Assembly (NCBI GenBank): GCA_026184775.1
Contig: JANCYW010000013.1
Coordinates: 231,001 to 295,000, forward strand
Direction of reading: 5' to 3'
Source: Cyanidium caldarium
Lineage: Eukaryota; Rhodophyta; Bangiophyceae; Cyanidiales; Cyanidiaceae
Length of the DNA: 64,000 nucleotides
The notes beneath the pieces are model-generated. The model saw nothing but the letters and a program-made list of their open reading frames with translations, was not told the DNA's origin and ran no database searches. This document shows, piece by piece, positions 6,426 through 47,838 of this stretch; position 1 is the stretch's first letter, and each line of letters begins with the position of its first letter. The translations under genes and the position numbers were made by a program.

Positions 6426-7664
6426 ATGTTTGTGGTCACCACCGGCTTGAAAGGTCAGTCGAGGCGGTCTGGTCTGGGGAGGCGAGCGGGGCGTGGTGGG
6501 GGACGGTGGGCGCGCACACGGGAGTGTGCGGCGCTATGTCCGTTTCGGTGTGTTTGGGGTGGGGAGGGGGTGTGCGGCCGGCGGTCGACGTCGGTGATGT
6601 TAATTCCGGGGGCGTTGGACGTGAACTGGTGGCGCCATGTGCAGGTGGAGTGGCGGTCGGGTGAATTGGCGAGGGGGAATTTCGGGGCGGTGTACGTGGG
6701 TGAGCACCGGCTGAGCGGTGAGCCGTTGGTGGTGAAGGCGGCCAAGGCGGCGGCGGACGGGTTGGCGCAGTCGTTGTTGGAGGTGGAGCGGCACGTGAAC
6801 TGGAAGCTGCAAGATCGGTCGGAGGAGTTGCAGCCGCGGCGCTGGGCCATGTTTCTGGGCAGCGCGCGGGTGTCCAGTCTGGGTGCGCCGCCCGAGCTGC
6901 TGGACGCGTATGCGCCGACGGTGCTGGTGTGGCGGAAAGAGGGCAGCGGCGAGACGTTGGAGGATTACCTGTCGTCGCGTCCGTGCTCGGCGTTGTCGGC
7001 AGCGATCGGCGCCAGCGATGCCGCCGCCCACGGTGCGTCGTTGTGCCGCAGCTCGTTTCGCATTGTGGTGGGCGAGCTGTTGCACGCGCTGACGCAGCTG
7101 CAGGCGGCCGGCATTATGCATCGAGATGTCAAGCCGCGGAACGTGCTGGTGGTGCCGCATGCGGAGGATGGCGCACCGCTCAAACTGATCGATTTCGGGT
7201 CGGCGTGCGAATGGGGCCCGTTCTTTAAGCGCGGCTATCGGGCAGATCACGCTACCTGCGACCCGACGTACGCAGCGCCGGAGATGTTCCTGTCGCCGTT
7301 TCATCCGGACCGTTTCGATGTGTTCTCGGTGGGCCTCATTGGCCTGCGGGTGCTGCTGCCGGCGCTGCGCAGCGAGATGCGTCTGCGAGAGTGCGTCACC
7401 CAGCTGCGCTTCAAGTACCAGTGGGACGTGACCCGCTGGGCGTGCGACGTCGCCGCGCGCGCCGATCAGCAGCCGAATGCGCGCAGCGCCAGTGCCCTGG
7501 GCGTGGATCCGCTGCCGCTGCAACTGTCATCGCTGGCGCAGGATGCTGCTCTGCTGCGCGTGCTGTCGGCGATGCTGCGCGAACGGCCGCGCTATCGCGC
7601 CAGCGCCGCGCAAGCGCTGCAACTTTATGATTTCTCCAATCTGCCGTCCACCGAGACGGCGTGA
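6426..7664 (+). CDS. STN7/STN8-like protein kinase, probably plastid
   Basis: A 412-residue Ser/Thr kinase. The kinase domain begins about residue 65 and has a GNFGAVY glycine loop, VVK lysine, HRDVKPRNVL catalytic loop, DFG and APE motifs. After APE it reads PDRFDVFSVGLIGLRVLLP and then an LR...YQWDVTRW stretch, which resembles the C-lobe of the thylakoid kinases STN7 and STN8 that phosphorylate light-harvesting and photosystem II proteins. I chose the ATG at 6426 because it adds a ~57-residue Arg/Gly/Ser-rich leader that could be a transit peptide; ATGs at 6174 (through the repeat) and 6597 (bare kinase) are alternatives. No membrane segment is obvious, unlike STN7. The STN assignment is moderate; the kinase assignment is firm. 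Confidence 0.75.
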   Translation: MFVVTTGLKGQSRRSGLGRRAGRGGGRWARTRECAALCPFRCVWGGEGVCGRRSTSVMLIPGALDVNWWRHVQVEWRSGELARGNFGAVYVGEHRLSGEPLVVKAAKAAADGLAQSLLEVERHVNWKLQDRSEELQPRRWAMFLGSARVSSLGAPPELLDAYAPTVLVWRKEGSGETLEDYLSSRPCSALSAAIGASDAAAHGASLCRSSFRIVVGELLHALTQLQAAGIMHRDVKPRNVLVVPHAEDGAPLKLIDFGSACEWGPFFKRGYRADHATCDPTYAAPEMFLSPFHPDRFDVFSVGLIGLRVLLPALRSEMRLRECVTQLRFKYQWDVTRWACDVAARADQQPNARSASALGVDPLPLQLSSLAQDAALLRVLSAMLRERPRYRASAAQALQLYDFSNLPSTETA

Positions 7665-27200: not shown

Positions 27201-29319
27201 CACACAGCCGAATGCCCAACCGCTCCGACAAACCCAGGCCCCAGCCGTGCGCCTTGCTGCTCTCGAACAAATGAATCTTGTCGCCCACACTGCTCATCCC
27301 CACCTCGTCCACCATCTTGTCGATGGCCGCGTCCAGCAGGCGGTACGGCACGCGGCCCAGTGACCCGATGTGGTGCTGTTTGCGCACCGCCGCCCGCACC
27401 GCCGACAGGGCACGTCGTCGCGACTCTCGCATCTGTTTGCGGAAGAGCGGCGAGTTTTTGGCCGGCGCCGCAGACGCTGTCGGCGATTCAGAACCCGTGT
27501 CGGTGGTCGGTTTGGCAGTGCTCACCGATGCTGTTGCCGTTTTCGGTATCGCGGTCGCCTCGATGCGCGCGTGGGTCAGCGGACGCGATGGCCGAATCGG
27601 CCTCGCCCGCTCCATCCCGCGACCTCTCCCGTGCGGCCAAAACCGCCTCCCACTCCCATCTTCCTCGGTGCGGGCCCGCTGCGCTACGGCTCGACGCACC
27701 AGCGCCCGTACCTGGCTGGCGCTGATCAGCAACTCGTCCAGTTTGTAGGGCAGCAGCGCCACTTGACGCACCAGCTCCCAGTCGGCATATCGGAATCGAC
27801 TGTGCAGCTGCATGTCTTGTAGCACCGCCAGCGACTGTTGGTGCACGCGACGCACTTGTGCGCGAAAGAAGCGCACCTCGGCCGACGTCTGACGCAGCAG
27901 GCCGAGCAGGCGCGCGACTTGGCGCACCGTGGTGCCCTGGAATAGCAGCGTCAGCAACACCACAGTCGACGTCCACAGTTGCACACGCGCCTGCACCACC
28001 ACGCCACCGGACAGGTTGCGGGTGTGGAACACGATCTGTGCGGCGATCAGCGAGATGGCGCCGCGCAGGCCGCTGTGCACGATCAGCAGCGACTCGCGCC
28101 ACGTCACCCCGTACCGCCCAGTGCGCAGCACCGGGAACAGCACCACCACCGCCACCAGGCGCGCCAAATACGTGATGGGGTACAGCGCCACTCCGTAACC
28201 GATGGCCGCGCCGCCGATGCCGTCCCTGCCCCAGAACACGATCAGATTCACCACCGAGATGAAACCGGCGTACACAAACGCCACCGAGTTGATAATGTGC
28301 GACACCACCTCCCAGAAGGCGTCCAGCGACTCTTGTAGCGCCGGGGTGATGGAGGCGAAGCGGTCCGCGGCGAACACCACCCCAAAGGCGGACACAGCCA
28401 CGATCCCGCTCACCCCCAGTGGGCTCTCCGCCACGTAAAACACCAAGTACGACATGATCAGCGTGGTGCCGATCTCGATGGCGGCGTCGCGCCACACGTA
28501 CCGCAGCAGGAAGAGCGTCGGGACGCCCATGGCGATGCCGACGGCGATGCCGCCCAGGCCGAGGCGGAACAGCTGCTGCACCAGATACCCGAACGAGGTG
28601 TTGCCGCCGGGCAGCAGCCGCGACAGAAATGCCAGGAACAGCGTGAAGCCGGAGCCGTCGTTGAATAGCGCCTCGCCCTGGATCATCACCTGAATATGCT
28701 TGCGCACCGGCGTTTTGGCCAGCATCATGCCCACTGCCAGGGCATCGGTGGGCGATATGAGCGCGCCGAACACCCAGCCAGCGTCGAAGCTCCAGCCGGG
28801 CACCCCAAAGGCGTAGGTGGTGAGCGCCGCCACAATGGCCGCCGAGATGAACACCAACAGAATGCTCAGACTGAACAGGTGCGGGATCGTGTGTTTGATG
28901 GTCCACCAGTCCAGGTACATGGCGCTCTCGAACAGGATGGGCGGAAAGAGCACGTAATACAGCGACGCCGGGTTGCTGATGTTCACCCACAAGCGCAACG
29001 AGGCCGACAGCTCCGCCAAGTTGAGGTAGCAGCCGGCCACCCCGAACACACCTCCCAGTAGCACTAGCGGCACCGTGTAGGGCAGCGTGAGTCGGTAGCG
29101 CGTAAAGGTGGCCTTGATGAAATACGAGAAGAGCACCGCCAATAGCGGGAACAGCAACACCATATAAACTGAGGCGGTCCATTGGGTGAACCCGCTGCAC
29201 ACGGAGAATATCTGGCGGCCTACCGCATCGCCGCCGCCGGTGCTGCTGCTGGCGCGGAGGGCGGTGCCTGCGGGCGCCACCCGCTCCGCCAACGTCCACC
29301 GACAGAATTCCCCTGTCAT
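24244..29319 (-). CDS. SOS1-like Na+/H+ exchanger, copy 2
   Basis: A 1691-residue tandem paralogue of the exchanger downstream. The membrane domain spans about residues 40-480 with ALISPTDALAV and QGEALFNDGSG (near 208-218), and the GLRGAISLIAAQIVFH motif that parallels GLRG in SOS1-type exchangers. The glutamate of the first copy's EGES motif is QGEA here. The cytoplasmic tail includes a charged helical region, a split cyclic-nucleotide-binding-like region (TSVMIVVWGVLEVR; then GLLAALYGHASALEVVAASP) and a disordered end with Pro and Gly runs. The ATG at 29319 is used. Two diverged copies suggest different ions, membranes or regulation. Confidence 0.82.
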   Translation of the reverse strand: MTGEFCRWTLAERVAPAGTALRASSSTGGGDAVGRQIFSVCSGFTQWTASVYMVLLFPLLAVLFSYFIKATFTRYRLTLPYTVPLVLLGGVFGVAGCYLNLAELSASLRLWVNISNPASLYYVLFPPILFESAMYLDWWTIKHTIPHLFSLSILLVFISAAIVAALTTYAFGVPGWSFDAGWVFGALISPTDALAVGMMLAKTPVRKHIQVMIQGEALFNDGSGFTLFLAFLSRLLPGGNTSFGYLVQQLFRLGLGGIAVGIAMGVPTLFLLRYVWRDAAIEIGTTLIMSYLVFYVAESPLGVSGIVAVSAFGVVFAADRFASITPALQESLDAFWEVVSHIINSVAFVYAGFISVVNLIVFWGRDGIGGAAIGYGVALYPITYLARLVAVVVLFPVLRTGRYGVTWRESLLIVHSGLRGAISLIAAQIVFHTRNLSGGVVVQARVQLWTSTVVLLTLLFQGTTVRQVARLLGLLRQTSAEVRFFRAQVRRVHQQSLAVLQDMQLHSRFRYADWELVRQVALLPYKLDELLISASQVRALVRRAVAQRARTEEDGSGRRFWPHGRGRGMERARPIRPSRPLTHARIEATAIPKTATASVSTAKPTTDTGSESPTASAAPAKNSPLFRKQMRESRRRALSAVRAAVRKQHHIGSLGRVPYRLLDAAIDKMVDEVGMSSVGDKIHLFESSKAHGWGLGLSERLGIRLCGSWRWLNRFALAILYRRLRIGHEVVSGLTMALLHALQSRREECARVSDLLQVPPTVDSPRITLLSMIMVADMEVSQELERDVQRCEQYLQSLAALSPEAVRASDSLRAAAVLLSRQERTLTALHTAGSLTQQELRGLLDQIDMRREALQRASLHYAAAGSDVDGVRESVQGWFAPHPATPPDGDTDAEGGGGGGAPKRDSRAAAGASIDADEHHDADALFRAIRQLGRVRSVFAGQVLQRNDAPMTSVMIVVWGVLEVRQWRRQEDADGSGASDAQTMHANAAASTDVPDRAAAIGDAEPSPLGKEPAVPAATASTSGGAPQHSSETQLIARLLSDDSRSRQRALSRQEAVVTEAGSPETPAPNEHATASADTPTRASLQLRRVQAYVANVFHLGRPRTPSDCSTGFHDDDDAFQDSMEAPLETVDASALSVNEVDLEAGRLSRGSVALASRVVRTLMNGDVGRNVYGLLAALYGHASALEVVAASPVVHVFLVPCHAFRAAITREPSWMTAVTRVAAAECARNLIVGVDEFREQQMEVGEERDDVGAAAGGADLPMPPPEPSTAPRTLPPRQHSYSMYDDYAAGSRTATAPSPGGQRSEAPDDAVLRALQTGADILAAVQRSATSMGRQAASGQTLWLAMPDGILVLLSGAVEVRVHRAALHPPPPLYRGRMHGAPPRGCGDSDETAEAAGAAASVAEAMEKSSTPSLLIIREPGAAQRFVLDHTLLATMPVRPISGYDDHDSGDPSRFVMDALSGTCVLSVAAPAILRHDRPGAATARPSLEVRTVARANNGQRAVRRPEVVWVWVESRETATRSTRQGGGHAAASESAGSSGVPPPPPPPPSASEESAAAASHPESAPEATAATTVPHGAVSDADRQRWPARPPLFQRLIPRSVSHYDRRTATAYRAHAPPRPSTPTTAIANLSRSRSFYEPHVVDESVGVRPSPPPDATASIDASDTDSFDEPDDARTRRDADLMAEESML

Positions 29320-32333: not shown

Positions 32334-35300
32334 ATGGGCAGGGTGACGCGTGAAATCATGGAGGAGAGGCACGAGGAGATGTTGAAGCGTTTGCTCCGGC
32401 TGCGGAAGGACCGGCCCTAGGCACGCGGCTCTGACGCCCGGCGCAACCTGTCCTTTGCGCGGCTGCTGATGGAAGCAATGAAGTGAGAAGATAAGTTTCA
32501 TCGCCTGGAGAAGCAGTTTGACAGGCTGCGGGTGAAGTTGCGGGGCCCGTATCACGTGCTGGATGTGCCGGTCGAGATGGTCGACTTGTCGACGGCGGCC
32601 AAGGGCAAGGTGTTCGCTGACGCGGAGCTGAAGAAGCTGTTCGGGAAGCACAAGATGTCGCACTTGTACACATTGCTCACGCGGACTCTGGAGAAGAGGC
32701 TCATGAAGCCGGCGGACGTGGTGGCCACCCGGGAGGCGCGTTCTGGGGAAGCGACACAGATGGCGCCAGCAGCAACGGTAGTGTTGCTCGACATCGAGTC
32801 GCCACCAGGGACCGAGGATGGCAAACGGAAACTGTCGGCGGTGCCGCGAATGCCCACCTACACCAAGTACAAGCTGTGGCGCATGTTGCTGCTGGACGGC
32901 CACGATGCCTCTCTGGTATGGGGGTGCCGCAAGCTGCTGCTGCTGCTGCTGGCGTTCCGTAAACGCCTCATCAGCGAGGATGCGTTTCTGTTCAACCTTC
33001 TTGGTCGGGTGCTGGCGGTGATGAAGTCGCACAAGCTGGCACTGGAGACGTTGCTGTGCAGTGGGGACACCCTAACGATCATCGAGGACGCGGTGCAGCG
33101 GATGAACGTGCTGCGGGGGCACGCGATGCGCCTGGCGCACTACTTCGCGGTGCACTGTCTGGAGGCGGGGCGGGAGTTGCCGCCGCTGACCCGCGACTTT
33201 TACGTGGCGGCGCTGTATGCGGTGTCGCGGGAGGGTCTGCCGCACAATCCGTCGGGTCTGCAGCGCGGGGTGAAGGAGTTTTTCGATGCAGAGTACAAGC
33301 TCACGATGGGCGAGGATGGCGAACCGGAGCTGGTCTCGCGGGAGAGACGGGTAGAACCCATCCTATTTGAGGGTGCGCAGCTGGCGGTGAACGCGGAGAA
33401 CAACATCCGAGAGCACTTGGTGCAGCACTTGTGCCGCCTGGTGAATGTGCACTTCCAGGTGCCGGAGCTGGTGAAGCAGGTGTGGAGCAACCCGCATCTG
33501 TCGCAGAAGCAGAAGCAGCAGCGGGTGGCGGCCACTCGGGCCGAGTTCCGCGACGTCAAGAACGACGTGCTGCAGGTGCCCAGCGGCAGCGAGCTGAAGT
33601 TCACCTGCCCGTAGAAGTATCACGCGTTTGTGCGGGAGCTGCGGGAGGCCATTCTGCCCAAGGAGTACGTGTTCACGGAGCAGGGCGTGGCTTACGACGT
33701 GAAGCGCTGCCCGCACATGTACGTGCGGGGCTTTTTGGAGCTGTGTCGTCGGCTGGAGCGGGCGGGCAGTCGTTTGCCGGCGGCGTTGCCGCTGCGGGGC
33801 TCACAGGTGCCGGGAAATATCACCATCGACACGAGGGCGTTGGTGCATTTGGTGTCGCTGGCGAGCGACGAGCCGTTGCTGGAGGCGATGGCGCGGGTGT
33901 GGAGTGCGCCGGTGTGTGATATGGTGGCGGCGGTTCCGACGGGACAGGGGGAGCAGCCGGTTGCTGCAGGATCGGCTGACCCGGCGGCAGATGATGGTGA
34001 CGATGAGGGCGAGCTGGTGGACGATGACGACGCGGATGCGACGGAGACGACGATGGAGACGGAGGCCGAGCAGCCCGAGGCGCCAACGACAGGTGCGACA
34101 CCCCCAAATTCCCCACGCGACCGCCTGGTGCAGGCGATATCCGCGCTGGTGCAGCAGCGCCTGGCAGCGCTGCAGGCGGGCGGCGACGATACCGCGATGG
34201 CCGTGGAGACGACTGCACGCCCAGCCAGACCCACCAGGGCGCACGGCAACGCCGAGTATTTCGCCGACCGGATGGTGGATTGGCTAGGGCGCCGCCTGCA
34301 GGAACGCCCGGGCGCCCTACCCGAGGGCGTCACCGCCACTCGTCTGCGCGACGCCCTGGCCGGACCGATGCGCCACCTGATGGTGGGTGCGCTGCGGGAC
34401 ACCCTGCGGCAGTTGCGGCGGCAGGCCTATGACGGACCCTTCACCCGGGAGATCAAGGATATCGTGTGGTGGAGTCGCGGCTTTCGGGAGTGTCCGACAG
34501 CGGACCTGCGCTACCTGTTCCGCCACATGATCCGCACCAACCGGGTGGCGGTGTCGGTCAGTCTGGTGCGTTGCGACATGCAGGAGGCGACGCGGATGCA
34601 GCTGCGGCGGCGCGGCCCCAAACCGGTGCCGCCATGCTGCAAGTACTTGGCCGACTGCTCGGAGGAGGAGCTGGAGCGTTTTCGACGCATGCGCATCGTG
34701 GTGATCGATCCGGGCATGGGCAAGCTGTTGCACGTGTTCGACGGCGGGGCGCAGATGCAGTACTCGCGCTCGCAGCTGCGGGTGGAGAGCAGGCACTACA
34801 AGTTTGAGCGGAAGCTGGGGCAGCTAGCGCAGACGGCACTGAAACACGGCGGGCGGACGCAGACGGTGGAGCAGTGGAACACCGAGCTGTCGGAGCAGTG
34901 TGCGCGGGCGATGACCGCGGACGGTCAGCGAGAGTGGCTGGACGTGGCCAACCCGCTGGATCATGCGATGTGCGAGCACCACTGCAACGAGGAGTATCGC
35001 CGGCTGCGGCACCGACACCGGTGCAACGAGCAATGCTCGTACGACGGGATGCTGAATCGCTTCGAAAAGTTGTATGGCAAGCCGGGCGAAGTGCTGGTGC
35101 TGTTTGGCGACTGGGGCATGCGGAATCACCATCTGCGGGGCAGCCCGCCGACCAAGGGCGAGGGCATGCGCGAGTTGTCTGAGAAACGTGGTTACGATGT
35201 GCGCCTCATCAACGAGGCGTACACCAGCGAGAGGTGTTCGGTGTGTTGTTGTGCGGGTGAGACAAAGACGTTGATGCAACGCCCGGACAAGCGCCGCGGA

Positions 35301-35460
35301 AAGGAGGGCGAGATGCGCACCATATGGCGTCTGGTGTAGTGTCAGAACACGAAGTGTGGTGGATCCACAACCGCGATACGAATGCCGTGTTCAACCTGCT
35401 GCGGGTCGCGTTGGCCGTTCTGCACGGCCTTCCACGCCCGGCCTATCTGTGTCATCCCCG
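32334..35460 (+). pseudogene. Decayed Fanzor (eukaryotic TnpB-like RNA-guided nuclease)
   Basis: Roughly 1040 codons related to Fanzor proteins, the eukaryotic relatives of TnpB carried by transposons. One frame runs almost the whole length with in-frame stops at 32418 (TAG), 32484 (TGA), 33612 (TAG) and 35337 (TAG). A one-base loss between about 35358 and 35363 puts the end in another frame. RuvC-I aspartate is in VVIDPGMG (codon 34707). RuvC-II has FGDWGM and the altered glutamate position INEAYTSERC (codon 35214). A zinc knuckle uses CSVC and, past the stop, CQNTKC. RuvC-III is HNRDTNAVFN (aspartate codon 35375) in the shifted frame. An acidic low-complexity insert lies near 33970-34080. 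The start and exact ends of the element are uncertain. An active protein is very unlikely. Confidence 0.85.
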
Positions 35461-35797
35461 GTCTCGGAATACTTCCTGTACCTCTGCTGCATCCTCGGGC
35501 CGCTCCTCCCGAAAGCGCCGATCGCCGAAATCGGCGCGCAATTCGGGCGCCGGTGATCGGCGTGCGCGTTGCGCGGAAGTTGCGGCGCGTGGCCGGGCCG
35601 AGCAAATTTTCAACCTATCGGGTGCAGCAGAGCGCGACAGGCCGGTCGCAACGTGAACGCGGACTCGTCGACAGAGTGCTGCGAGTCGCGGCTAAGCTCG
35701 GTGAGACTACCGAGCAACCAGGTTCTCCGAAAGTCTGGACTACTCCGGGCTGACGAGGACAGCTGGGTCGGGTCGCGGGTCCTTTAGGCAGTCTGGA
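35461..35797. ncRNA. Possible remnant of a Fanzor guide RNA / transposon right end
   Basis: About 337 non-coding bases between the Fanzor remnant and the end of the INCENP gene. A perfect 8-bp stem (GCGCCGAT, 35515-35522, with ATCGGCGC, 35530-35537; 7-base loop) and a second possible pairing (CGCGCAA 35535-35541 with TTGCGCG 35569-35575) sit just past the nuclease frame. Guide RNAs of TnpB/Fanzor elements are usually encoded there. This is an inference; no boundary is known. Confidence 0.25.
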
Positions 35798-38700
35798 TTA
35801 GTCCAGGTACCCCAACGCGCGCTTGTATTCGGCCTCTTCGCGCCAAGTAAGTCGGTCCTGCACCCAGTTGCCGCTGGAGGAGCGACGACGACGACGCTGA
35901 CGGTGCGGGTGTCGAACGGCATCGGTTGCGGTCGATGCCGCGAGTGCCGTCGGCTTGGTCGCCGAGGGATGCGTCGATGAGGCGCCAGCATCGCCGTCGC
36001 CGAACACCGCCTCCAAGTCGCAGGTGAAGACGCGCGGGAAGATATCGTCGGGATCGACCGGTGCCTGCTTCCACAGCGCCTCGTGCAGGGCGTACGGCCG
36101 TGCCCATTCGGGGATGCGGGCGGTTTTGGCCGAGGCGCGGGCGGCGGCATCCCCACCGCCATGGTCCGGCGCGTCATCCTCGTCGTCGTCGTCCTCGTCG
36201 GACAGACTGCGGCGCTCGACGGGGATGGGATAGTCCCGGACGGAAGATGCGCCCGGTTGCGTGGCCGGTTGGACGCTCTTTTCGGGTGCGGCGTGCCGTT
36301 GTCGATGGCGTTCGTCCTCGTGCAGCAGACGCTGCTGATGCTCCCAGATGCGCCGGCGCTTCTCCTCCCGATGGCGGGCAGCGGCAGCGGCATCCTCGGC
36401 GGCGGAGGCGGAGTTCTCGGCGCCGCCGGCCGGAGCGGTCGGCGCCGGCGTCCGCGCCTTGGTCGGCGAGCGCTGCACGCTGACGTTCAGCGCCGCCCGG
36501 GATGTGTCCAGCGACTCGTTGGCGTACACCTGATTGCGAATATCGCGCAGCGGCTGCGTGACCGACGCATTGCCGGGCAGCGGCGTACGCGGTCGGCGGG
36601 AGCGCGATTTGTTGGGCGACGGCGAGCGGCCGCTCCACGCCGCCTCGGGCGGTCGCGTCGCTGCCGGCTGGCCGGTGCTCGGTGGTGGCGGCGGTGCTGC
36701 CGCCGTCGATGTCGTCGGCATGGCGGCGCGCTTCGCCCGCAACCGCTCGATTTGACTGCGCAACGCCTCGGTGCGCGCCAACTTGCTCTCTTGCCGCACC
36801 GAGCTGCTGCCGCCACGCACTGGCTCGACGCGCGTGTCGTCCGGGCGCGCGGCTGTCGCTGCCGCGGCCGGTGGCGAATGCGCCTGGCCGTCGTTCGATG
36901 GTCGGTGACGAGGTGGCACCGTCGGTGTCGATGCGACCGGCGGTGACGGATGTGTTGCCTCCTTGGTCGGAGACACCGGCTGCGCCCCGGTCGTCGACGA
37001 GTCGGGAGGTTGAGGTGGTGACGCTTCCGCCGCCCCCGTCATGGAAGTGTCGTGTGCACGCATTGCGGGCCTCAGTCTGGTCATTGGCGCGTCGCCGCTG
37101 GTGATGCGCGACAACTCCACGTGCTTCGGCCGCGCAACCGTGGAGGATCTGCGCTCCTGGCGGTCGACGACGGCGTCGGGAGAGAGCACGGACAACTTGG
37201 AGTCGTCCGGCGCCGTGGGGTGCGTCGGGGATGGCGCGGGTGGCGCATCGGCGGCCGTGGCGATGGGTGTTGACGGCGGGGCCGTCGGTTGCGGTGAAAC
37301 GGGCACCTGCCGTTGCGGTGATGGCGGTGAAGCTGCTCGCGCATCGGCGGCCGTGGCGATGGGTGTTGACGGCGGGGCCGTCGGTTGCGGTGAAACGGGC
37401 ACCTGCCGCTGCGGTGACGCCCGCTCGGATGTGACACTCTCCACAGCAGCCTCATCGTTCCTCGGAAGGGCATCCCCGTCGCGTGGTGTTGGCGCTGGCG
37501 TTGGCGATCGCCGGTCGGATATCGCGGACGGCTCGACCTCCACAACACAGGCTGTTGGCTGCACGCCTTCCGCACCGCCCTCGTCGGCCGCCACATCTGG
37601 CCTCGGCGGCAACTCCGTCTCCCGCCTGGGAGTCGCGGCCGCATTCATAACGGAGTTGCGCGGCGACGTCTTCGCCACGGACGCGGCTCGGACCGGCGCC
37701 TTGCGGTTGAACAGGCGAATGGTGGGCCTGCCGCCAGCACCGTCAGATGACGTCGCCTCGGCGCTCGCTTGTGTGGTGACTCGGCCGTCCCGGCCGACCG
37801 CAAAAGTCGGCAAGCGTGCGCTGGCGGCGACGATGCGTACGCTCTGTGACCGGCGCGCGCCGCTGCCGCTTGTGGTTATAATCGGAGCAGGTACAGCGGG
37901 TATGTCGGCGGCGGCGTTGGCCGCAGTCTGCGCCCTGTTCGTGACGGGTGCCTCCTCGACCGCGCCCCTTTGCGCATCTGGCGACTCGGGCGTCTTCGGC
38001 GGTTGTGCAGCCGGTGACGGCTCTGGCACCGGAGACGAATTCGCAGCAGCATACGGTGCCGGAGTTTCCACAACCTCCGGAGCGGTCGTTGTCGCCGGCG
38101 CGTCGGCAACTCCGCTGGCGCTCCCCTGGTCACCAGATCCAGACACACGAGCGTCTGACACCTCCTCGGCTTGCTCGGGCTCTCTGACGCTCGCGAGCCT
38201 CGTCTCGGTTGGCGATGCGTGCCCCTCCGACGTCGCGTCGTCGTTCGCATCGGCAAACACCGGCGTGTTGCTGTCGCGCGCGCACATCCACGCATCGCTA
38301 TGATGCGAGGAGGACGGCATCGGCAGCATGACGAACGAGTCCTCAGGCGAAGCCGCATCGCCCAGTGCCGCGACCGGAGATGCGACTCGTGAGCCACCCG
38401 TTGGCGTCGGCGCCTGCCAATGTCTTGCGCTCGGCGAAGATCGCATTGCCGGGCTAGGGGCATCGCATATCTCGACTGGAGGCGCATCCACCGGCTCGGA
38501 GCTCGTAGGGGGCGGTGTCGCCGGAGGCGGACTCCCTAGCGAGCGCAACTCTGTTTCAGCCGATGGCGGTGGCGATTCGCCCGGTGTTGCGTCCGCCTCT
38601 CTGTCCATCGGCGGCTCCACGACTGCTTCCGGTGGCGGCGGCGGTTTCTCTGGCGATGTGCTGACGCGTGTCGCGGTATCGCTCACATCCACGTTCGGTG

Positions 38701-40825
38701 CCGCTTCCGACAATCCCTTCCCGCACTCCCTCCGTTTCTCCGCGCAGTGGCAACAGAACCAGTCGCCGCTCGGCACGCGCTCCAGCCGGGGCTCACAGCA
38801 GTACGTGTGCCACGAGTCTTCGCATCCGTCGCACAGCAGCAACACCTCGGCGTCGTGGCCCTCGCGACAGCGCCGACAATACGTCTCGTACTTGGTGGGC
38901 GTGCGGCCCTCAGCGATGGCACGAGAATACGGCGATAAGACGTCGATGGGCGCGACGGGGGACGGCTGCGACTGCCCCGATGCCTGCGTCGGCCGGGCAG
39001 CGGGTGCGTCCCGCCGGCTGCGGCGTGGAGCGGTGTGTCCCGCTTTGGGCACCGCCGCGGAATCATCGGTCGAAGCGTTCGCGACTGCCTCGGCAGGGGG
39101 ATCACTGCCCTCTTTCTTGGCGCTGCGAGTTGTCACTGGGCCGTCTCGTGAGGTATTCACCTCCGCAACGGCGGCTGTCGCAACGTCAGCACTGGTCCTC
39201 TGCGACCGTGTCGATCGAGGTCGCTCGGGTCGAGTCGCGTCAGCACTGCCCGCCTCGACTGTGGCCCTTCGACGACCACGTCTCTGGGGGGCGTTTGGCG
39301 CAGACACGTTCACCTGTTCTGGTGCAGCTGCCGGTGGCACACATCGTTGGCAGAACCAGTCGCCCTCGGGCACCGCATCCAGTGGCGGACGACAGCAGTA
39401 CGTGTGGAAGCAGTCATCGCACCGGTCGCACAGCAGCATTAGGTGCCCGTTGTCGGTGCCGCGACATTGTCGACAATAGGTCTCGTATTTGGTGGGGGTG
39501 CGGCCTTCCGCCTTGGCGCGGGAGAAGGGCGAGAGTCCATCCAGCGCGGGCGCTGTGGGCGCCGTCTCCTCCCGCCCCTCACGCGTCGCAGCGCCGCTGG
39601 CGTCTCGGCTGTCGTGGCGTCTCCGAACTGTGCGCTTCTCCACGCTACGCTCTCGGGCGCGCGACATGTGTCCGGCGCGGCGTTTGTGGGTTGTTCGCAC
39701 CGGTCGCGGTTGCGGCGCGCCGGGGCCAACAGAGTCGACGCTCGTATCCGGTGGTGCAGCGGCCGTTTTCATCGGCTGTGCGCCGCTCATGCGGCTCAGG
39801 CGGCGGCTGCGCACCGGCATGAGCGACGGCCTGCCGGGCCCGCTCCCGGCGCCATCGAAATCGTACGCCGAGCTGACGTCTGCATTCGCCGCCGCCGCCG
39901 CCGCCGCCACTGTCGCCAGCTCTGGGGCCTTTTGCGTATCCATCGCCTCGGATGTCTCGCTGGAGGCGTCGCCCACCAGTGCTCGCTTACGCTCGCCCAG
40001 CGCGGTGATGCGCCGGCGTCGCCTGGCCCGCGCACTCAACATCAGACTCCTGCGGGTGGCGCTCGGCGGTCGTACCAGACCCAGCACCGAGTCGCGCAAG
40101 CTATGATGTCGCGTCAGGCGGGACGGCTGCGATCGCCCGTGACGCTCCGAGGACGCCGAGGCACCCGCATCCGATGCCGTCTCGGCGCTGTACGCTTCCT
40201 CCTGTCGTCGCCAGTGTTCCCGCATCAGACTGGATACCGAAGGATCCGCCTGGTGTACCACTTCGTTCATCGAGGCTGCCTCCGTAAAACCGTCGTCCTC
40301 GTCCAGCGGCCGCGGTCGCGCCTCCCGGTGCCGCTGCGCCGTCCGCTCAGCCGCCTCCTGCAGCCACCGCGCATGAGCCGCATACTCACCGTCCAGCTGT
40401 CGCAGATGCCCCTCCGCGGCTCGCCGTATGGCCTGAATCGCCTCCACGACCGTGCGCCGTCGCGCGGCATCCGCCTCGCCCATTCCGCGTTCAACACCCC
40501 TTCGGGCGCGACACTCTCGGTACGATCCGGTGTGCCGCACCCAATTATCCCTCAGCGCCCCTGTGATCTCCTCCTCGACCAGCACGGGCGCATACTGCCA
40601 CCGTCGCGCCCTCCCAGCGCCAGGTCTCCGGCCTCCTCGGTGACGATAGCGCTCGGTCGATTTCAAAAACGAGCGATCGCGCCGGATCGCGTTGAGGGAA
40701 TCGCGGAGACGCGTGTGCGCGCCGGGTCGAGGAGCCCCTCGAGCGAGCCGCATCGAAGAGAACGAAGAGGGAATAGGACCCAGTCTGTGCGTGAGAGGGG
40801 ACGTTTCACGAATTTCACGCAACAT
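35798..40825 (-). CDS. INCENP: INCENP homologue with two PHD fingers
   Basis: A 1675-residue, mostly disordered protein. The C-terminus matches the INCENP IN-box that binds and activates Aurora B: IPEWARPYALHEALW at about residue 1570, then DPDDIF and CDLEAVFG, and a TSS-like motif RRSSSGNW near 1647, which in INCENP is phosphorylated by Aurora. Two C4HC3 PHD fingers lie at about 449-495 and 647-693, each preceded by LSP(F/Y)SRA.AEGRTPTKYETYC. The N-terminal 200 residues are helical and charged and could be the survivin/borealin-binding part, but no CEN box is obvious. A 32-residue tandem duplication lies near 1135-1195. INCENP with PHD fingers is not a layout I know. The start may instead be the ATG at 40753, because 40823-40826 is shared with the divergent gene. 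Confidence 0.8.
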   Translation of the reverse strand: MLREIRETSPLTHRLGPIPSSFSSMRLARGAPRPGAHTRLRDSLNAIRRDRSFLKSTERYRHRGGRRPGAGRARRWQYAPVLVEEEITGALRDNWVRHTGSYRECRARRGVERGMGEADAARRRTVVEAIQAIRRAAEGHLRQLDGEYAAHARWLQEAAERTAQRHREARPRPLDEDDGFTEAASMNEVVHQADPSVSSLMREHWRRQEEAYSAETASDAGASASSERHGRSQPSRLTRHHSLRDSVLGLVRPPSATRRSLMLSARARRRRRITALGERKRALVGDASSETSEAMDTQKAPELATVAAAAAAANADVSSAYDFDGAGSGPGRPSLMPVRSRRLSRMSGAQPMKTAAAPPDTSVDSVGPGAPQPRPVRTTHKRRAGHMSRARERSVEKRTVRRRHDSRDASGAATREGREETAPTAPALDGLSPFSRAKAEGRTPTKYETYCRQCRGTDNGHLMLLCDRCDDCFHTYCCRPPLDAVPEGDWFCQRCVPPAAAPEQVNVSAPNAPQRRGRRRATVEAGSADATRPERPRSTRSQRTSADVATAAVAEVNTSRDGPVTTRSAKKEGSDPPAEAVANASTDDSAAVPKAGHTAPRRSRRDAPAARPTQASGQSQPSPVAPIDVLSPYSRAIAEGRTPTKYETYCRRCREGHDAEVLLLCDGCEDSWHTYCCEPRLERVPSGDWFCCHCAEKRRECGKGLSEAAPNVDVSDTATRVSTSPEKPPPPPEAVVEPPMDREADATPGESPPPSAETELRSLGSPPPATPPPTSSEPVDAPPVEICDAPSPAMRSSPSARHWQAPTPTGGSRVASPVAALGDAASPEDSFVMLPMPSSSHHSDAWMCARDSNTPVFADANDDATSEGHASPTETRLASVREPEQAEEVSDARVSGSGDQGSASGVADAPATTTAPEVVETPAPYAAANSSPVPEPSPAAQPPKTPESPDAQRGAVEEAPVTNRAQTAANAAADIPAVPAPIITTSGSGARRSQSVRIVAASARLPTFAVGRDGRVTTQASAEATSSDGAGGRPTIRLFNRKAPVRAASVAKTSPRNSVMNAAATPRRETELPPRPDVAADEGGAEGVQPTACVVEVEPSAISDRRSPTPAPTPRDGDALPRNDEAAVESVTSERASPQRQVPVSPQPTAPPSTPIATAADARAASPPSPQRQVPVSPQPTAPPSTPIATAADAPPAPSPTHPTAPDDSKLSVLSPDAVVDRQERRSSTVARPKHVELSRITSGDAPMTRLRPAMRAHDTSMTGAAEASPPQPPDSSTTGAQPVSPTKEATHPSPPVASTPTVPPRHRPSNDGQAHSPPAAAATAARPDDTRVEPVRGGSSSVRQESKLARTEALRSQIERLRAKRAAMPTTSTAAAPPPPPSTGQPAATRPPEAAWSGRSPSPNKSRSRRPRTPLPGNASVTQPLRDIRNQVYANESLDTSRAALNVSVQRSPTKARTPAPTAPAGGAENSASAAEDAAAAARHREEKRRRIWEHQQRLLHEDERHRQRHAAPEKSVQPATQPGASSVRDYPIPVERRSLSDEDDDDEDDAPDHGGGDAAARASAKTARIPEWARPYALHEALWKQAPVDPDDIFPRVFTCDLEAVFGDGDAGASSTHPSATKPTALAASTATDAVRHPHRQRRRRRSSSGNWVQDRLTWREEAEYKRALGYLD
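37245..37417. repeat. 96-bp tandem duplication in the INCENP gene
   Basis: Two copies, at 37245-37340 and 37341-37417 (the second partial), are almost identical for the first ~77 bases with one mismatch. They encode two copies of a proline-rich segment reading SPQRQVPVSPQPTAPPSTP. Confidence 0.93.
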
Positions 40826-41399
40826 GGAGGAGGATACGCCACCGAACAGCGTAGGGGAGTTGGAAAATCACTGTGCAGCCCGTGCCGAATTTTTGCAAAA
40901 GGTGCACGCAATGTCGCCCGACGAGGTGCAGGCGCTGGTGGAGGCGGCCGCCGCAACACGTGAGGAGGCCGATGGGAAACTGCCTCGGGAAATTCTCATC
41001 GAAGGCGGGGATGACGTGCGGTTTGTGGATGTGGCCACGGTGGAGGAGCTGGAGGGCACGACCGGGTCGTCTGAGGACGACGCGGCGGAGGACGAATCGC
41101 TCGGCGGCGACGATGACGAGGCGGCGCGGCAGTGGCGAACAGCGGCTCTGGCCGAGGCCGAGGCGACCATCGGTGTGTCTGATTTGCTGGCGTGGGCACG
41201 CGATCAAGCACTGGGGGTGTATGCGCGGGTGTGGCTGGCGCGATACCTTCGGCGTCAGGGCCGACTGCCCTCACCGGAGGAGCTGCAGCAAGCTCGCGAG
41301 GCGGATGCTGCAGACCGCTATCCGCGCGGCACTTTCGATGCGGATGCAGATGATACGACGCCCGACCCGCTGGTGCATGCGTTGCTCATCGACGGGTGA
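40824..41399 (+). CDS. Unknown acidic protein
   Basis: A 191-residue protein that I do not recognise. The N-terminal third is helical (HAMSPDEVQALVEAAAATRE), followed by a strongly acidic stretch near 80-105 (SSEDDAAEDESLGGDDDEAA). A helical segment at about 115-150 ends in YLRRQGRLPSPEE. No membrane segment or known motif is seen. The ATG at 40824 shares the CATG at 40823-40826 with the start assigned to INCENP on the other strand; a second ATG at about residue 30 is possible. The gene converges on the CCT-domain gene. Confidence 0.55.
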   Translation: MEEDTPPNSVGELENHCAARAEFLQKVHAMSPDEVQALVEAAAATREEADGKLPREILIEGGDDVRFVDVATVEELEGTTGSSEDDAAEDESLGGDDDEAARQWRTAALAEAEATIGVSDLLAWARDQALGVYARVWLARYLRRQGRLPSPEELQQAREADAADRYPRGTFDADADDTTPDPLVHALLIDG

Positions 41400-41764
41400 C
41401 GCCCGAGGCGATCTGGCAGGGGCCCTCGCCGCGGAGTGAAGAATTACGCGATTTAGTTCATGTCATCGAAGCATAGGCTGCAGTTGTCATGTTGTCTGCC
41501 GGGCAGCGTTCGCATGCCCAGCGCGCATCGGCACATGGTGTCTGCTGCCGATCACACACGCCGTCGGTCCGTGTCGCACTCCCGGCCGCCCCACACAGGC
41601 CATGCGATGGCGGTGTGTGCGGCCGTTGCTGTTCCCGCGGTTTCCGCGTTCGCACACCCCGAGTCAGTAATAAAACGGATTCCGTTAATGCTGCACGCCG
41701 AGCGCGCCTCTCAGAAAGAGGATCCAGGCGATAGCCTTCCGCACGCGGGTTATCCGCGTCGCGC
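41400..41764. other. Convergent intergenic region
   Basis: About 365 bases between two converging genes, presumably 3' UTRs. It contains an AATAAA at about 41669 on the plus strand. No gene is supported. Confidence 0.4.
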
Positions 41765-42604
41765 TCAGTCTTGTCGCTTCACGAAGCGGCCACGCACTCG
41801 CGGCCGGTTGATGGCCAACCGTTTCCGACAGTCGTATCGGATGGTCTTTTCGAAACAGCGTCGCTTTTTCTTCTCGCGATAGCGCCATACGGCTTCCTCG
41901 CGCAGGCGCGCCCTCTCGCCCACCAGCTTTCCGGACGTTAACAACGCTGCGGCCTTGTCCAGTGTTAGCGCGCGGTCGCCGCTGCTGCTCTGCGAGCGTT
42001 CCGGGGTCACCGGCGAGTTGGAGCGGCCCGCCGAGCAGACGCCGCTGCGTGCCGCAGGCGTGTCGCTTCCGGCGCGGTCGGTGGTCAGCGACACCGGGAC
42101 GCTGCCAGCGCGCCTGTCCTCAGGCGGTTCATCGGCTGCCCCGGCGCGTGTGGAGATCGGCGCCAGATACGCGGCCGCATCGAAAAGCGGCGGTGAAAAG
42201 CCGTTCACTCCCAAAATCGCCGACGCCGAGTGGGTACGCTGCAGCAGTGCCTCTCGCCGGCGATCTGGCCAGCGCATCACCGACGGATGCGCGTCCATGC
42301 TCACCAGGCTGGCGCGACTGCCATGCGCTTGCAACCGCGACTCCCAATCGTACGCGGCCGGCAGCAGCGGCGGTGCCGTCGCCGCCTCACGCCCGTGCAT
42401 ATGCAGGGACGAGGTATCTGCCCCCACTGCGGACACTCGCGCAGAGTCGACCGCGCCCAGCACAGCGTCGCCGTGCAGCAGCGCATCGACGTCGCCCCAG
42501 TCGTCGTGGTCGGGGGGTTCGTCCATGCCTCCCAGAAACTCCCCCGACATAAGCGCCGCCGTCTCCAGTCCGGGCGGCATCAGCGCGTCCACGTCGTCGT
42601 CCAT
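41765..42604 (-). CDS. CCT-domain protein (CONSTANS/TOC1 type)
   Basis: A 279-residue nuclear regulator candidate. The last ~44 residues form a CCT motif: [20 protein letters not shown], then [23 protein letters not shown] motifs bind DNA and NF-Y subunits and are found in plant flowering and clock proteins and their algal relatives. The N-terminus is acidic ([12 protein letters not shown], then [17 protein letters not shown]) and could be an activation region; the centre is Ser-rich. No B-box or response-regulator domain is present, as in CMF-type proteins. The first ATG in frame is at 42604. Its target genes cannot be inferred. Confidence 0.85.
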
Positions 42605-43180
42605 GGAAGGTGAGGATGCGCGGCTGCCGTCGATGTACCGAGCCGTTACGGATGCGACGTACAACTTCCAAGGCACGCTACGTTTCCGTTATGTTCCACG
42701 GCGTCCCTCGTCCCGCCCACGCCGATTCCCAGTGCAGCGGCAACGAGTGCAGAGTCGATCACGTCCGCGTTCGATCCGCTGCGGTGATGCACCCGCGGCG
42801 TGATGGCGAATGGCCCGTGTGTCAGCCGACGAAGAATAGCAGGCACGCCTGCCATGGTGTCACGCGGTGGATGCTCGCACCGCTCGCCACGCCGATGCGC
42901 CTGAAGGTTACACTTTATTGGACACCTCTCGAAGGTTTGCCACCCGATCTCCGCGTTCCGCAGAACCCTAGAAGGATCTAGCCGATTGTGGAAGCCTATG
43001 GAACGTCGATGCGACCGAAGTTGCACGGACGCGATTTCACGTGAGCAAATCCGATTCCGCGCGGAACCGTTTGAGAGCTGCGCTGAACGTGCCCAGCGGG
43101 ACCATGCGGTAGCGTACGGCGTCACTTGCGCATTGTGGCGTACTTCTCCGTGTGCCGCATCGGTTCGCCATAGCGTCAAT
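42605..43180. promoter_or_regulatory. Divergent upstream region of the CCT and MFS genes
   Basis: About 576 bases between two divergent starts. An in-frame ATG at 42998 could extend the MFS gene by 61 residues. On the minus strand AATAAAGTGTAA occurs at about 42908-42919, but no minus-strand gene ends there. No other gene is seen. Confidence 0.4.
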
Positions 43181-44863
43181 ATGCTCGCCGTCGCTGCCCT
43201 TATTCAGCACGCTATCAAGCAACGGCGCGCTCGCAACGCCAAGTCCGCTGATGGTGCCGACTCGAACGGCGGCGTCAGCTCGGCCGACGAGAAGGGCGTG
43301 CCCGCGGTGCGCGGGTTCAACGAGACGCCCGAGCAGGTGCGCTGGAACACCCTGGCCATTTACGTGGCCGGGGCGGCGTTGGTGTTCGATTTCACGGCCA
43401 CGCTCATGTCCATCCAGGCGCTCTTTTACCTTCTACAAGCACCATCCCGCCTGTACGGCCTCACGTTTGCCGCATACGATATCACCCAGTTTCTGTTTTC
43501 GCCGGCCTACGGCTTGTGGGCGGACGCGTATGGCTTACGCTTGCCGCAGCTGACGGGCATTCTGGTCAACCAGCTGGGCAACATCCTGTACGCTTTTACG
43601 GTGCTCAGCAAAGAGTGGTATGTCATCCTCATCGCGCGCTTCATCAGCGGCGCGGGTGCGGCGGTGCTGTTCACCGGCCTGTTTTACCTGACGGGCACCA
43701 CCTCGTTCGAGCAGCGCTTCGCGCTCCTGTCGCGCTACCGTCTGATACAGAGCTTGGCCCGCTTCATCGGGCCGTTCCTCGCTTTCGCGTTCCTGGGCAT
43801 GCCGCTGCCGACGCCGCAGTCGAGCGCGGCGGTGCGCGTGTTCAACTTTTACACGATGCCCGCTTGGCTCACGGTTCTGGTGACGCTGACCGCCCTGGTG
43901 GTGGTGGCGTGGTGGTTTCGCGACCCGCCCGACTGGCACGAGCACCGTCTCGCGCTGATGGACGAGGCGCTGCGCCAGCGGGAGCTGCAGCTGGGCCAAC
44001 CGGTGGGCAGCAGCAAATATCGGCAGATGTCCCGCTGGCGCCAGCTGCTGGCGGTAGCGCCGCGCGGGACGCTGCGCACCATTTTGCTGCTGCAAGCGGC
44101 GATCCTGTTGATGACCAACATCATCATCTGGGCGACCTACAGCAATCTGTACGCGCAGGCTGTCGGCCACTTCCACCTGGTCGGCAGTCAGACCGACATT
44201 TGGAAGGTGTTCGCGCCGCTACCAGTCGGTGTGGGCGTCGCGACGCTCGTGCGTACCGTGGCATCGACCTCCTCGATACAAGCCCATGGCCCGGAGCGCG
44301 CCCTCACCGCCAGCGCCTTTTTGGCGCTCTTCATCTCGTACATGCTCGTCATACCGTACGACAGTACGATCGCCGCGCCCAATGCCTGGCGCTACTATGT
44401 GTCTACGGGCTTTCTCGGTTACACCGTGGTCACCGTGTACATCTCGTTGGAGGTCATTTTCTCCAAGTACATGACCCTGGGCGAGCGTCAGACCGGGCCG
44501 GTGCTCGGCCTGCTCTTCAGCCTCTACTCCATGGTGGGGGCGCTGGGGCGCGCGATCGGCCAGATCGTTGTCGGCTCGGTGACCCACATCGCCGATACCG
44601 TTGGCACCGGGGCGCTGTGTCAGCCGAGTATCGCCACCTCGACCTGTTGCCTGGCCGCAGATACATTCCGCACCAGCACCTGCGAACTGACCAGTGCGCG
44701 CGCCTTCTATGCGGTCTTTGCGGTGTTCACGTTCCTCACCGGTGTCGCCGCCGCCTGGATATTTTGGGACTACAACTACGAGCGCGTGCGGCAGGACTGT
44801 GAGGTGGTGGAAGCGGCACCGCCGGCGCCGTCAGAGGATCAGCTGCCCGAGACGATATACTGA
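43181..44863 (+). CDS. Major facilitator superfamily transporter
   Basis: A 560-residue membrane transporter with about 11-12 hydrophobic segments. The first begins near residue 60 (LAIYVAGAALVFDFTATLM) after a charged cytosolic N-terminus. SPAYGLWADAYGLR matches MFS motif A between segments 2 and 3. A hydrophilic loop at about 245-290 divides the two halves. A Cys-rich loop (CQPSIATSTCCLAADTFRTS) before the last segment may face the lumen. It resembles MFSD8/SPX-MFS-type carriers, but the substrate is unknown. I chose the ATG at 43181 because it gives a usual short N-terminus; 42998 is possible. Confidence 0.8.
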   Translation: MLAVAALIQHAIKQRRARNAKSADGADSNGGVSSADEKGVPAVRGFNETPEQVRWNTLAIYVAGAALVFDFTATLMSIQALFYLLQAPSRLYGLTFAAYDITQFLFSPAYGLWADAYGLRLPQLTGILVNQLGNILYAFTVLSKEWYVILIARFISGAGAAVLFTGLFYLTGTTSFEQRFALLSRYRLIQSLARFIGPFLAFAFLGMPLPTPQSSAAVRVFNFYTMPAWLTVLVTLTALVVVAWWFRDPPDWHEHRLALMDEALRQRELQLGQPVGSSKYRQMSRWRQLLAVAPRGTLRTILLLQAAILLMTNIIIWATYSNLYAQAVGHFHLVGSQTDIWKVFAPLPVGVGVATLVRTVASTSSIQAHGPERALTASAFLALFISYMLVIPYDSTIAAPNAWRYYVSTGFLGYTVVTVYISLEVIFSKYMTLGERQTGPVLGLLFSLYSMVGALGRAIGQIVVGSVTHIADTVGTGALCQPSIATSTCCLAADTFRTSTCELTSARAFYAVFAVFTFLTGVAAAWIFWDYNYERVRQDCEVVEAAPPAPSEDQLPETIY

Positions 44864-45885: not shown

Positions 45886-47838
45886 ATGCTCTTGCGAGCG
45901 GTCTCCCGACGGCTGCCGCGGCAGCGGTGGGCACGCCGAGCGGCGGCCGTCCTGGCGACGACGACCGCGGTGGTTGGATGCACGCATCAGGTGCTGGCGG
46001 ATGCGGCGACGCCAACGTGGCGACAAGCGCCAGCCACTGAAGAGCACGAGCAGGAGTCGCTGTCGAGCTGGACGGTGCACACCGACTACGCCTCGCAGGT
46101 GGCCGCGGCGCAGCGGTTCCTGCGCTGTGTGACCACGGCCGCCTCTATCGTGGCCGACTACAAACTGACGCTGGCGCGGCTGCCGCTGATGCGGGTGTGG
46201 GAGGGCGAGGAGGCGGCTGCGCGGCCGGTGGACGCGTCGGCGGTGCACCGACGGTCGGCCGCGAAGCTGTATCGACTGTGTGAGCGCAACGGCGGCATCT
46301 ACATCAAACTGGGACAGCATCTGGCCCAGCTGGATTATCTGCTGCCCGACGAATACTGCGAGGCGATGCGGCCGCTGCTGAATGCCTGCCCGACGCAGCC
46401 GCTGTCGGAGGTGGAGGCCACGCTGCGCGAGGATCTCGGCATCACCAGCCTGACGGAGGCGTTCGCGGAGTTTGAACCGCAGCCGATCGCCTCCGCCAGC
46501 CTCGCGCAGGTGCATCGGGCGCGGTTACGGCCCGATAGAATACACGAGGCGAACGCCAGCGATGATGGTGCGTCGGCATTCCCTCTAGTGGTGGCAGTCA
46601 AGGTGCAGCATCGCGGCCTGGCGGAGGCGTGCCAGGGCGACATCGCCACCGTGCAGTTTCTGGTGACCGCCGCCCAACGACTCTTCCCGGGCTCGTTCGA
46701 TTACCAGTGGTTGGTGGACGAGATTCGCGACAACCTGCCGCGCGAGCTGGACTTTCAGCTGGAGCGGTGCAACGGTGAGCGCTGTGCACACCAGCTGCAC
46801 ACCGTGCGCGATGCCGACGGGCGGGAGCGAGCGCGACCCCGCCCGGACGTGCGGGTACCGCAGTTCCTGCCGCAGCTGTCGTCGCACCGCGTGCTGACCA
46901 TGTCGTACGAGCACGGTGTGCCGGTGCACGACGTGAACGGCATTCAGCGGCTGGGATTGCGGCTGCGGGATGTGGCCGCGGTGGTGAACGATGTGTTTAC
47001 CGACCAGATATTCATACACGGTTTCGTGCACAGCGACCCGCATGCAGGCAATATTCTGGTGCGGCCGCGCGATGACGACGCCTCCCGACCGCTCATCGTG
47101 TTGTTGGATCACGGCCTGTATCGCGAGCTGGACGACACCTTTCGCCTGCGGTATGCCGCGCTGTGGCAGGGTATTGTCGGTGGGGATAGCCGCGGCATTC
47201 GGACGCAGGCGTTGGCGATGGGCGTGCCCGAGGCGGATGTGGAGCTGTTCACCTCGATGCTGACCACGCGTTCGTGGCGCGAAGTGGTGCGCGACGACGA
47301 CGACGACGACGACGACGATGCGACGCGCTGGCAGCGGTTGCAGTACGTCGGCGTGCACAGCGAGGCCGACAAACAGCGGGTGCAGGCGTTTGCCCGCGAG
47401 CGGGCGCCGGACATTGGGCGCGTGCTCAGTCGGGTGCCGCGGCCGCTGTTGTTGTTATTGAAGACCAACGACTGTTTGCGGGCGGTGGATCGGCGGCTCG
47501 GCTCGCCGGTGAGTATGGTGGAGATGATCGCCCGCAAGGCCAATGTCGCGTTGATGCAGGCGGCCGCAGCGGGAGAGGCGGTGCTGGCGGAAAGTGCGAA
47601 CAACCACGTCGAAGGGATGTCGGGGAAGCGGCGGCCGTTATCGGTTCTCTGGCAGTGGCGCGCGTTGTGGTCGCGTCTGCGTCTGGAGGTGCGCCTGCTG
47701 GCGTTTCGATTGTTGGTCTGGTGGCATCAGGTGCGGGCGACCGTCGAAGGACAGTGGCGCGAGTGGTGTCCGCGAAAATATCGGCAACGGGGACGACGTG
47801 CGACGAAGGCTCCTCCTGGCGGGCACGACGTGGGGTGA
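45886..47838 (+). CDS. ABC1/ADCK1-type atypical kinase
   Basis: A 650-residue UbiB/ABC1 family protein, probably mitochondrial: the N-terminus (MLLRAVSRRLPRQRWARRAA) is Arg-rich and followed by a hydrophobic stretch. Family motifs are the KxGQ loop (IYIKLGQHLAQ, about 136-146), an Ala-rich loop with ASASLAQVHRA, VAVKVQH lysine, HSDPHAGNIL catalytic loop and DHGLYREL in place of DFG. DHGLY is typical of ADCK1/Mcp2, which act in lipid homeostasis, rather than COQ8. A nine-aspartate run at about 467-475 is an insertion. The C-terminal hydrophobic, Trp-rich segment may touch a membrane. The stop is 6 bases from that of the converging TauE gene. Confidence 0.9.
   Translation: MLLRAVSRRLPRQRWARRAAAVLATTTAVVGCTHQVLADAATPTWRQAPATEEHEQESLSSWTVHTDYASQVAAAQRFLRCVTTAASIVADYKLTLARLPLMRVWEGEEAAARPVDASAVHRRSAAKLYRLCERNGGIYIKLGQHLAQLDYLLPDEYCEAMRPLLNACPTQPLSEVEATLREDLGITSLTEAFAEFEPQPIASASLAQVHRARLRPDRIHEANASDDGASAFPLVVAVKVQHRGLAEACQGDIATVQFLVTAAQRLFPGSFDYQWLVDEIRDNLPRELDFQLERCNGERCAHQLHTVRDADGRERARPRPDVRVPQFLPQLSSHRVLTMSYEHGVPVHDVNGIQRLGLRLRDVAAVVNDVFTDQIFIHGFVHSDPHAGNILVRPRDDDASRPLIVLLDHGLYRELDDTFRLRYAALWQGIVGGDSRGIRTQALAMGVPEADVELFTSMLTTRSWREVVRDDDDDDDDDATRWQRLQYVGVHSEADKQRVQAFARERAPDIGRVLSRVPRPLLLLLKTNDCLRAVDRRLGSPVSMVEMIARKANVALMQAAAAGEAVLAESANNHVEGMSGKRRPLSVLWQWRALWSRLRLEVRLLAFRLLVWWHQVRATVEGQWREWCPRKYRQRGRRATKAPPGGHDVG
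47283..47318. repeat. GAC/GAT triplet run encoding poly-Asp
   Basis: A run of GAC/GAT codons inside the ADCK1-type gene encoding nine aspartates. Confidence 0.8.

Follow-up and report, generated by a model that had tools for sequence, protein, structure and literature searches.

It is not settled how Aurora kinase reaches the chromosomes in eukaryotes that lack a Survivin of the animal type. A preliminary description of the locus studied here started from the premise that, in animals and fungi, histone reading by the chromosomal passenger complex (CPC) is done by the BIR domain of Survivin. This premise proved too narrow, as Survivin-type readers are also described in plants, whose BORI proteins have an FHA domain that binds phosphorylated histone H3 (PMC11794483, PMC10987093). 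Kinesins are described as the trypanosome solution (PMC10987093), and INCENP-A and INCENP-B of apicomplexans are described as occurring without Survivin and Borealin (PMC12946202). As for the activation of the kinase, a TSSxxW motif of INCENP was defined from the structure of Aurora C with INCENP; the available text of the same article describes the yeast and Arabidopsis INCENPs as lacking this motif, which is therefore not universal (PMC6639382). In human INCENP, a helix together with a nucleosome-binding motif, RRKKRR, has been described (PMC12624148). Here we analyzed a stretch of 64,000 nucleotides of DNA from Cyanidium caldarium (hereafter, the window), which encodes an INCENP-type protein with two PHD fingers on the same frame.

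The open frame and its C-terminal region

The frame lies on the minus strand and is free of stop codons over 1689 codons from stop to stop (35798-40867); the ATG at 40823-40825 and the TAA at 35798-35800 are the ends of the ORF listed in Table 1. Residue numbers were counted from the beginning of the stop-to-stop frame, so that this ATG is M15. The start codon is uncertain among M15, M39 and M129, and residues 15-38, which are 24 codons only, have the lowest codon-usage score of the frame. The letters CATG at 40823-40826 contain both the ATG of M15 and that of a divergent ORF on the plus strand (ATG at 40824), which extends to 41399 and has no Pfam match. A Pfam search with the whole frame detected PHD in two stretches (E 9.7e-17, 61.2 bits) and INCENP_ARK-bind (PF03941; E 1.2e-13, 51.2 bits, with a cutoff of 22). 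Together with the positions of the motifs, this confirmed that the C-terminal IN-box, the TSS-like RRSSSGNW and two complete C4HC3 PHD fingers are all on one frame, as the preliminary description had noticed.

Table 1. Features of the INCENP-type gene (nucleotide positions in the window; residues numbered from the stop-to-stop frame)
Feature	Residues	Positions	Strand	Remarks
INCENP-type ORF	up to 1675 aa	35798..40825	(-)	from ATG 40823-40825; single open frame
Alternative start	M39	40751-40753	(-)	
Alternative start	M129	40481-40483	(-)	
Predicted long helix	116-182 (67 residues)	40322..40522	(-)	AlphaFold2; candidate Survivin/Borealin-binding helix
Basic run RARRRRR	280-286	40010..40030	(-)	possible counterpart of human RRKKRR, by position only
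Extension before PHD1 (20 aa)	445-464	39476..39535	(-)	LSPFSRAKAEGRTPTKYETY
PHD finger 1 (C4HC3)	465-511	39335..39475	(-)	Pfam PHD, alone E 2.4e-12
Extension before PHD2 (20 aa)	644-663	38879..38938	(-)	
PHD finger 2 (C4HC3)	664-710	38738..38878	(-)	Pfam PHD, alone E 9.8e-9; E674 at acidic-wall position
Pro/Ser/Thr/Ala-rich linker after PHD2 (649 codons)	712-1360	36788..38734	(-)	assumed disordered from its composition
96-nt (32-codon) unit in two tandem copies, head to tail, in linker		37227..37417	(-)	frame-keeping
Charged, Pro/Gly-free stretch before IN-box (45 residues)	1483-1527	36287..36421	(-)	
IN-box core	1585-1622	36002..36115	(-)	PF03941
TSSxxW-like motif RRRRRSSSGNW	1658-1668	35864..35896	(-)	motif definition in PMC6639382

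When searched alone, the last 107 residues matched PF03941 significantly (E 9.2e-12, 45.1 bits), bearing out the IN-box that had been called from the letters. Within the C-terminal region, IPEWARP begins at residue 1585, DPDDIF at 1605, CDLEAVFG at 1616 and SSSGNW at 1663. A phmmer search of the C-terminal 120 residues against solved structures found no INCENP up to E 10, and the IN-box is therefore identified by its Pfam profile and by the motifs.

After the IN-box, R-S-S-S-G-N-W at residues 1662-1668 satisfies the TSSxxW activation motif. When the human residues were carried over by offset, R887, R891, T892, S893, S894 and W897 corresponded to R1658, R1662, S1663, S1664, S1665 and W1668, and the hydrophobic contacts I872, L875, L877, I880 and F881 corresponded to V, C, L, V and F. 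Over all stop-to-stop frames of at least 80 aa in the window (92,759 residues), the pattern R[STG]S[ST]xxW has a single occurrence, which is this site, and the looser [TSG]SSxxW has eight. The spacing between the core and the motif, which had been noted as longer than usual, is indeed so: 41 residues from the last Phe of the IN-box to the motif, versus 11 in human INCENP (numbering of PMC6639382). By a crude rule, the charged stretch before the IN-box is the only Pro/Gly-free one of at least 35 residues. Taken together, the profile and the motifs support an INCENP-type C-terminus that would bind Aurora.

The INCENP-type gene is adjoined by a Fanzor1-like gene (32487-35656, plus strand; solved relatives, the Fanzor1 proteins of Parasitella and Spizellomyces), which looks degenerate, with an in-frame stop at 33612-33614 and a likely C-terminal piece in another frame. 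Among the 27 ORFs of the window that were scanned, the one with a match to PF00069 is closest to Stt7, not to Aurora; it lies at 6174-7664 on the plus strand, covers positions 99-259 of the 263 of its Pfam profile and has the state-transition kinase Stt7d as its closest solved relative. The window also encodes two neighboring, very long Na+/H+ exchangers (17952-23822 and 24244-29319, minus strand; 1956 and 1691 aa) and a CCT-motif protein, and several conserved genes have nearly their whole Pfam profile covered by a single ORF, among them UDPGP (3-412 of 413) and SIR2 (1-180 of 180). The Stt7-like kinase and the CCT-motif protein would point to a photosynthetic, algal host. The ORFs for ribosomal protein L13 (44992-46515, minus strand) and for an ABC1-type kinase (45886-47838, plus strand) overlap at 45886-46515, where one start or both are probably misplaced.

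The paired PHD fingers

The zinc ligands, chosen from the Cys and His positions, are C465, C468, C480, C483, H488, C491, C506 and C509 in the first finger, and C664, C667, C679, C682, H687, C690, C705 and C708 in the second. The two copies are 199 residues apart and identical in 44 of 71 residues, and they differ at 15, 17 and 37 sites in codon positions 1, 2 and 3, respectively. Because of this identity and the distribution of the differences over the codon positions, we consider that the copies arose by duplication and were kept at the protein level.

Each finger is preceded by an extension with the consensus LSP[FY]SRAxAEGRTPTKYETY. The two extensions are identical in 18 of 20 residues, with 11 third-position changes versus three at positions 1 and 2, and thus agree better with each other than the two fingers do (25 of 46 residues). 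In a profile search of solved PHD chains, none of the 59 matched chains passed the last seven residues of the extension, and in a second search a few among the best 60 of 86 matches reached further into it. The 20-residue extension is probably functional. An AlphaFold model of the PHD unit, made from two sequences, was poor (mean pLDDT 49.5).

The closest solved relatives of the fingers are BAZ2B (2.2e-19), BAZ2A (4.5e-17) and CHD4 (1.8e-16), followed by the KDM5 'lid' (6e-16), KDM5A (3.3e-15) and KDM5B (7.2e-15). The H3-contact residues described for KDM5B (PMC4225485) were placed on the fingers through the KDM5A letters of the alignment. The positions of L325, D328, P347, G349 and W351, which anchor A1 and R2 of H3, are kept in both fingers, the anchoring aspartates being D481 and D680. 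The acid that contacts T3 in KDM5B, E321, is not kept in register (G474 in the first finger and A673 in the second), nor is D308, the acid contacting K4, which is replaced by Tyr in both fingers (numbering inferred). The Trp of the cage for methylated K4 is absent from both fingers, with C486 and S685, respectively, at its position, which we take to be two residues before the His ligand as in the solved cages. This Trp is described as conserved, and an acidic-wall residue has been tied to the binding of a helical H3 tail with unmethylated K4 (PMC5415848); the acidic-wall position is occupied by E674 in the second finger and by H475 in the first. By likeness, both fingers are of the type of BAZ2 and of the first PHD finger of KDM5, resembling readers of unmodified H3, and may bind histone in a similar manner. 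Since the acids at the E321 and D308 positions are not kept, the assignment to readers of unmethylated K4 is one of likeness and not of membership.

The N-terminal part and the proposed role of the protein

AlphaFold2, run on one 250-aa fragment without further sequences, predicts the long N-terminal helix at residues 102-168 of this fragment (overall mean pLDDT 56.0, pTM 0.28), and blocks within 121-170, in fragment numbering, have a mean pLDDT of 86-97. The INCENP_N profile gave no match up to E 10, and comparison of the N-terminal part with solved structures gave no INCENP match. Similarity to the human sequence did not exceed chance, its score being reached in 89 of 2000 shuffles for a chosen segment and in 276 of 2000 for the whole N-terminal part. 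A WLxE pattern seen by eye had suggested homology of this helix to the CEN box, the N-terminal INCENP helix that bundles with Survivin and Borealin; as the shuffles, the profile and the sequence search lent it no support, we do not claim this homology.

Whether the PHD fingers and the IN-box belong to one protein depends on the linker between them, which we take as disordered from its composition. The alternative is that a PHD gene and an INCENP gene are read through as one frame in GC-rich DNA. The GC content is 62-71% (2-kb steps), at which the length of a frame is by itself poor evidence for a gene; ORFs of at least 80 aa abound on both strands (81 over 33000-43500), and by synonymous codon usage the ORF frame was best in 9 of 15 segments, the failures lying in the linker. 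By total codon score it was best in 23 of 32 segments. Against two genes, the linker has no stop in the INCENP frame, whereas 3 to 15 stops are present in each of the remaining five, and none of 1000 dinucleotide shuffles was stop-free (mean, 9.2 stops). Its residues F, I, L, M, W, Y and C amount to 6.8%, compared with 11.5% in the shuffles, none of the 1000 being as low; the 96-nt repeat leaves the reading frame intact, and a separate PHD gene would find no stop codon ahead of the IN-box. For the antisense ORFs at 37041-38303 and 38328-39479 (plus strand), Pfam gave nothing up to E 1, and we regard them as shadows cast by the INCENP frame. Because the linker lacks stops and is poor in bulky residues, two genes are argued against; we give the lack of stops and the residue composition more weight than the codon bias, and regard the two-gene reading as very improbable.

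If there is one gene, its product could be a canonical INCENP with its own Survivin and Borealin partners, for which the PHD fingers would be an extra and secondary contact with chromatin. The long predicted N-terminal helix, with RARRRRR about 100 residues later, loosely resembles the arrangement of the human helix and RRKKRR (PMC12624148), although the profile, solved-structure and shuffle tests lend no support to a Survivin/Borealin-binding helix. We give this reading somewhat less than an even chance; note that it overlaps with the explanation favored below, and the two assessments are not mutually exclusive. It is also conceivable, but in our judgment unlikely, that a PHD chromatin regulator captured an IN-box and brings Aurora to interphase chromatin, another gene encoding the mitotic INCENP. 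The nearest solved relatives of the fingers are indeed chromatin factors, the N-terminal family of INCENP was not matched, and duplications of INCENP beside the loss of Survivin and Borealin are described in alveolates (PMC12946202). On the other hand, the IN-box and the activation motif both lie at the extreme C-terminal end, the usual place in INCENP, and no second IN-box was detected among the 27 scanned ORFs of the window.

We favor, as rather probable, a scaffold of the INCENP type with a histone reader acquired as part of its own chain, which would both activate Aurora and grip the unmodified N-terminus of H3. In this scaffold, the C-terminus would wrap the N-lobe of the host Aurora kinase, its two contact segments being joined by a loop that exceeds the one of human INCENP by 30 residues, and phosphorylation of the serines in the activation motif would switch the kinase on. 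The PHD fingers would hold the free N-terminus of H3 (A1, R2 and unmethylated K4), so that INCENP itself would deliver Aurora to chromatin on a long, flexible tether. The preliminary description had suggested that INCENP itself may read H3 tails here, replacing or supplementing a Survivin-type reader. This suggestion is supported in part, by the presence of the IN-box and the PHD fingers on one frame and by the resemblance of the fingers to others that bind the N-terminus of H3; the replacement or supplementing of a Survivin-type reader would be a putative role.

The putative reader would prefer H3 tails without phosphorylation at T3, the opposite of the preference of the Survivin BIR domain, and would suit general loading onto, or release from, chromosomes rather than haspin-directed centromere targeting. 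This preference is expected because H3T3 phosphorylation weakens several known contacts between PHD fingers and H3: such an effect is described for the H3 binding of UHRF1 and TAF3 (PMC4103482) and for that of DIDO3, ING2, MLL5, RAG2 and TAF3, PHD proteins of the H3K4me3 type (PMC8494884). Among these proteins, only UHRF1 is described, in the available text of these sources, as reading unmodified H3R2, and the expected effect is less certain because the T3-contacting acid of KDM5B, E321, is absent from both fingers. A bolder version, which we consider doubtful, is that the CPC of this lineage has no separate histone reader, that the paired PHD fingers of INCENP read T3-unphosphorylated H3, and that haspin would release Aurora rather than recruit it. 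A PHD-INCENP predicts a specific and opposite response to H3T3 phosphorylation, and with a kinase activator and a histone reader on one chain it would be simple to test.

Relation to known systems

The protein resembles the INCENP/Sli15/Pic1 family (PF03941) in its C-terminal IN-box (51 bits), in a TSSxxW motif with upstream arginines at matching offsets, and in its long, disordered-looking middle. It differs in the two PHD fingers, the 30 extra residues between the IN-box and the motif, and the unmatched INCENP_N. Animal INCENPs have a long single alpha helix or coiled coil in the middle, which is not regarded as defining, whereas here, by the crude rule used above, only a short charged stretch is present at the place of their long helix. 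The fingers resemble those of BAZ2A, BAZ2B and the first PHD finger of KDM5, which are among the best solved relatives, in that the A1 and R2 anchors are kept and the cage Trp is absent, and differ in that the E321 acid is not kept, the acidic wall is present in the second finger only, and a 20-residue extension precedes each finger.

The search for relatives of the fusion gave none in viral or prokaryote contigs, collections that are unsuited to a eukaryotic gene, and this result has no bearing on its spread. Literature searches on INCENP with PHD or histone readers, on FHA/BORI1 and on Cyanidioschyzon gave no INCENP with PHD fingers in the titles and beginnings of abstracts of the matches listed, and Komaki et al. 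2022 may already mention such architectures. The available portions of the papers comparing CPCs make no mention of a reader domain on INCENP itself, and 'PHD' does not occur in the main text of PMC12946202.

Among the described systems, the plant BORI1/2 proteins, which are Survivin-like and contain an FHA domain, are alike in that another domain was taken up by the CPC as a reader of the H3 tail; theirs, however, is on the Survivin-like partner and is described as reading H3T3ph, whereas here the domain is on INCENP and resembles those that read unmodified H3. The apicomplexan INCENP-A and INCENP-B are alike in that INCENP may itself contact chromatin, as the authors suggest, and differ in that they are described, in the available text, as being without a canonical TSS site, while here the motif is present together with two PHD fingers (PMC12946202). 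Beside these systems, an INCENP with its own PHD reader would add a further kind of solution to the recruitment of Aurora.
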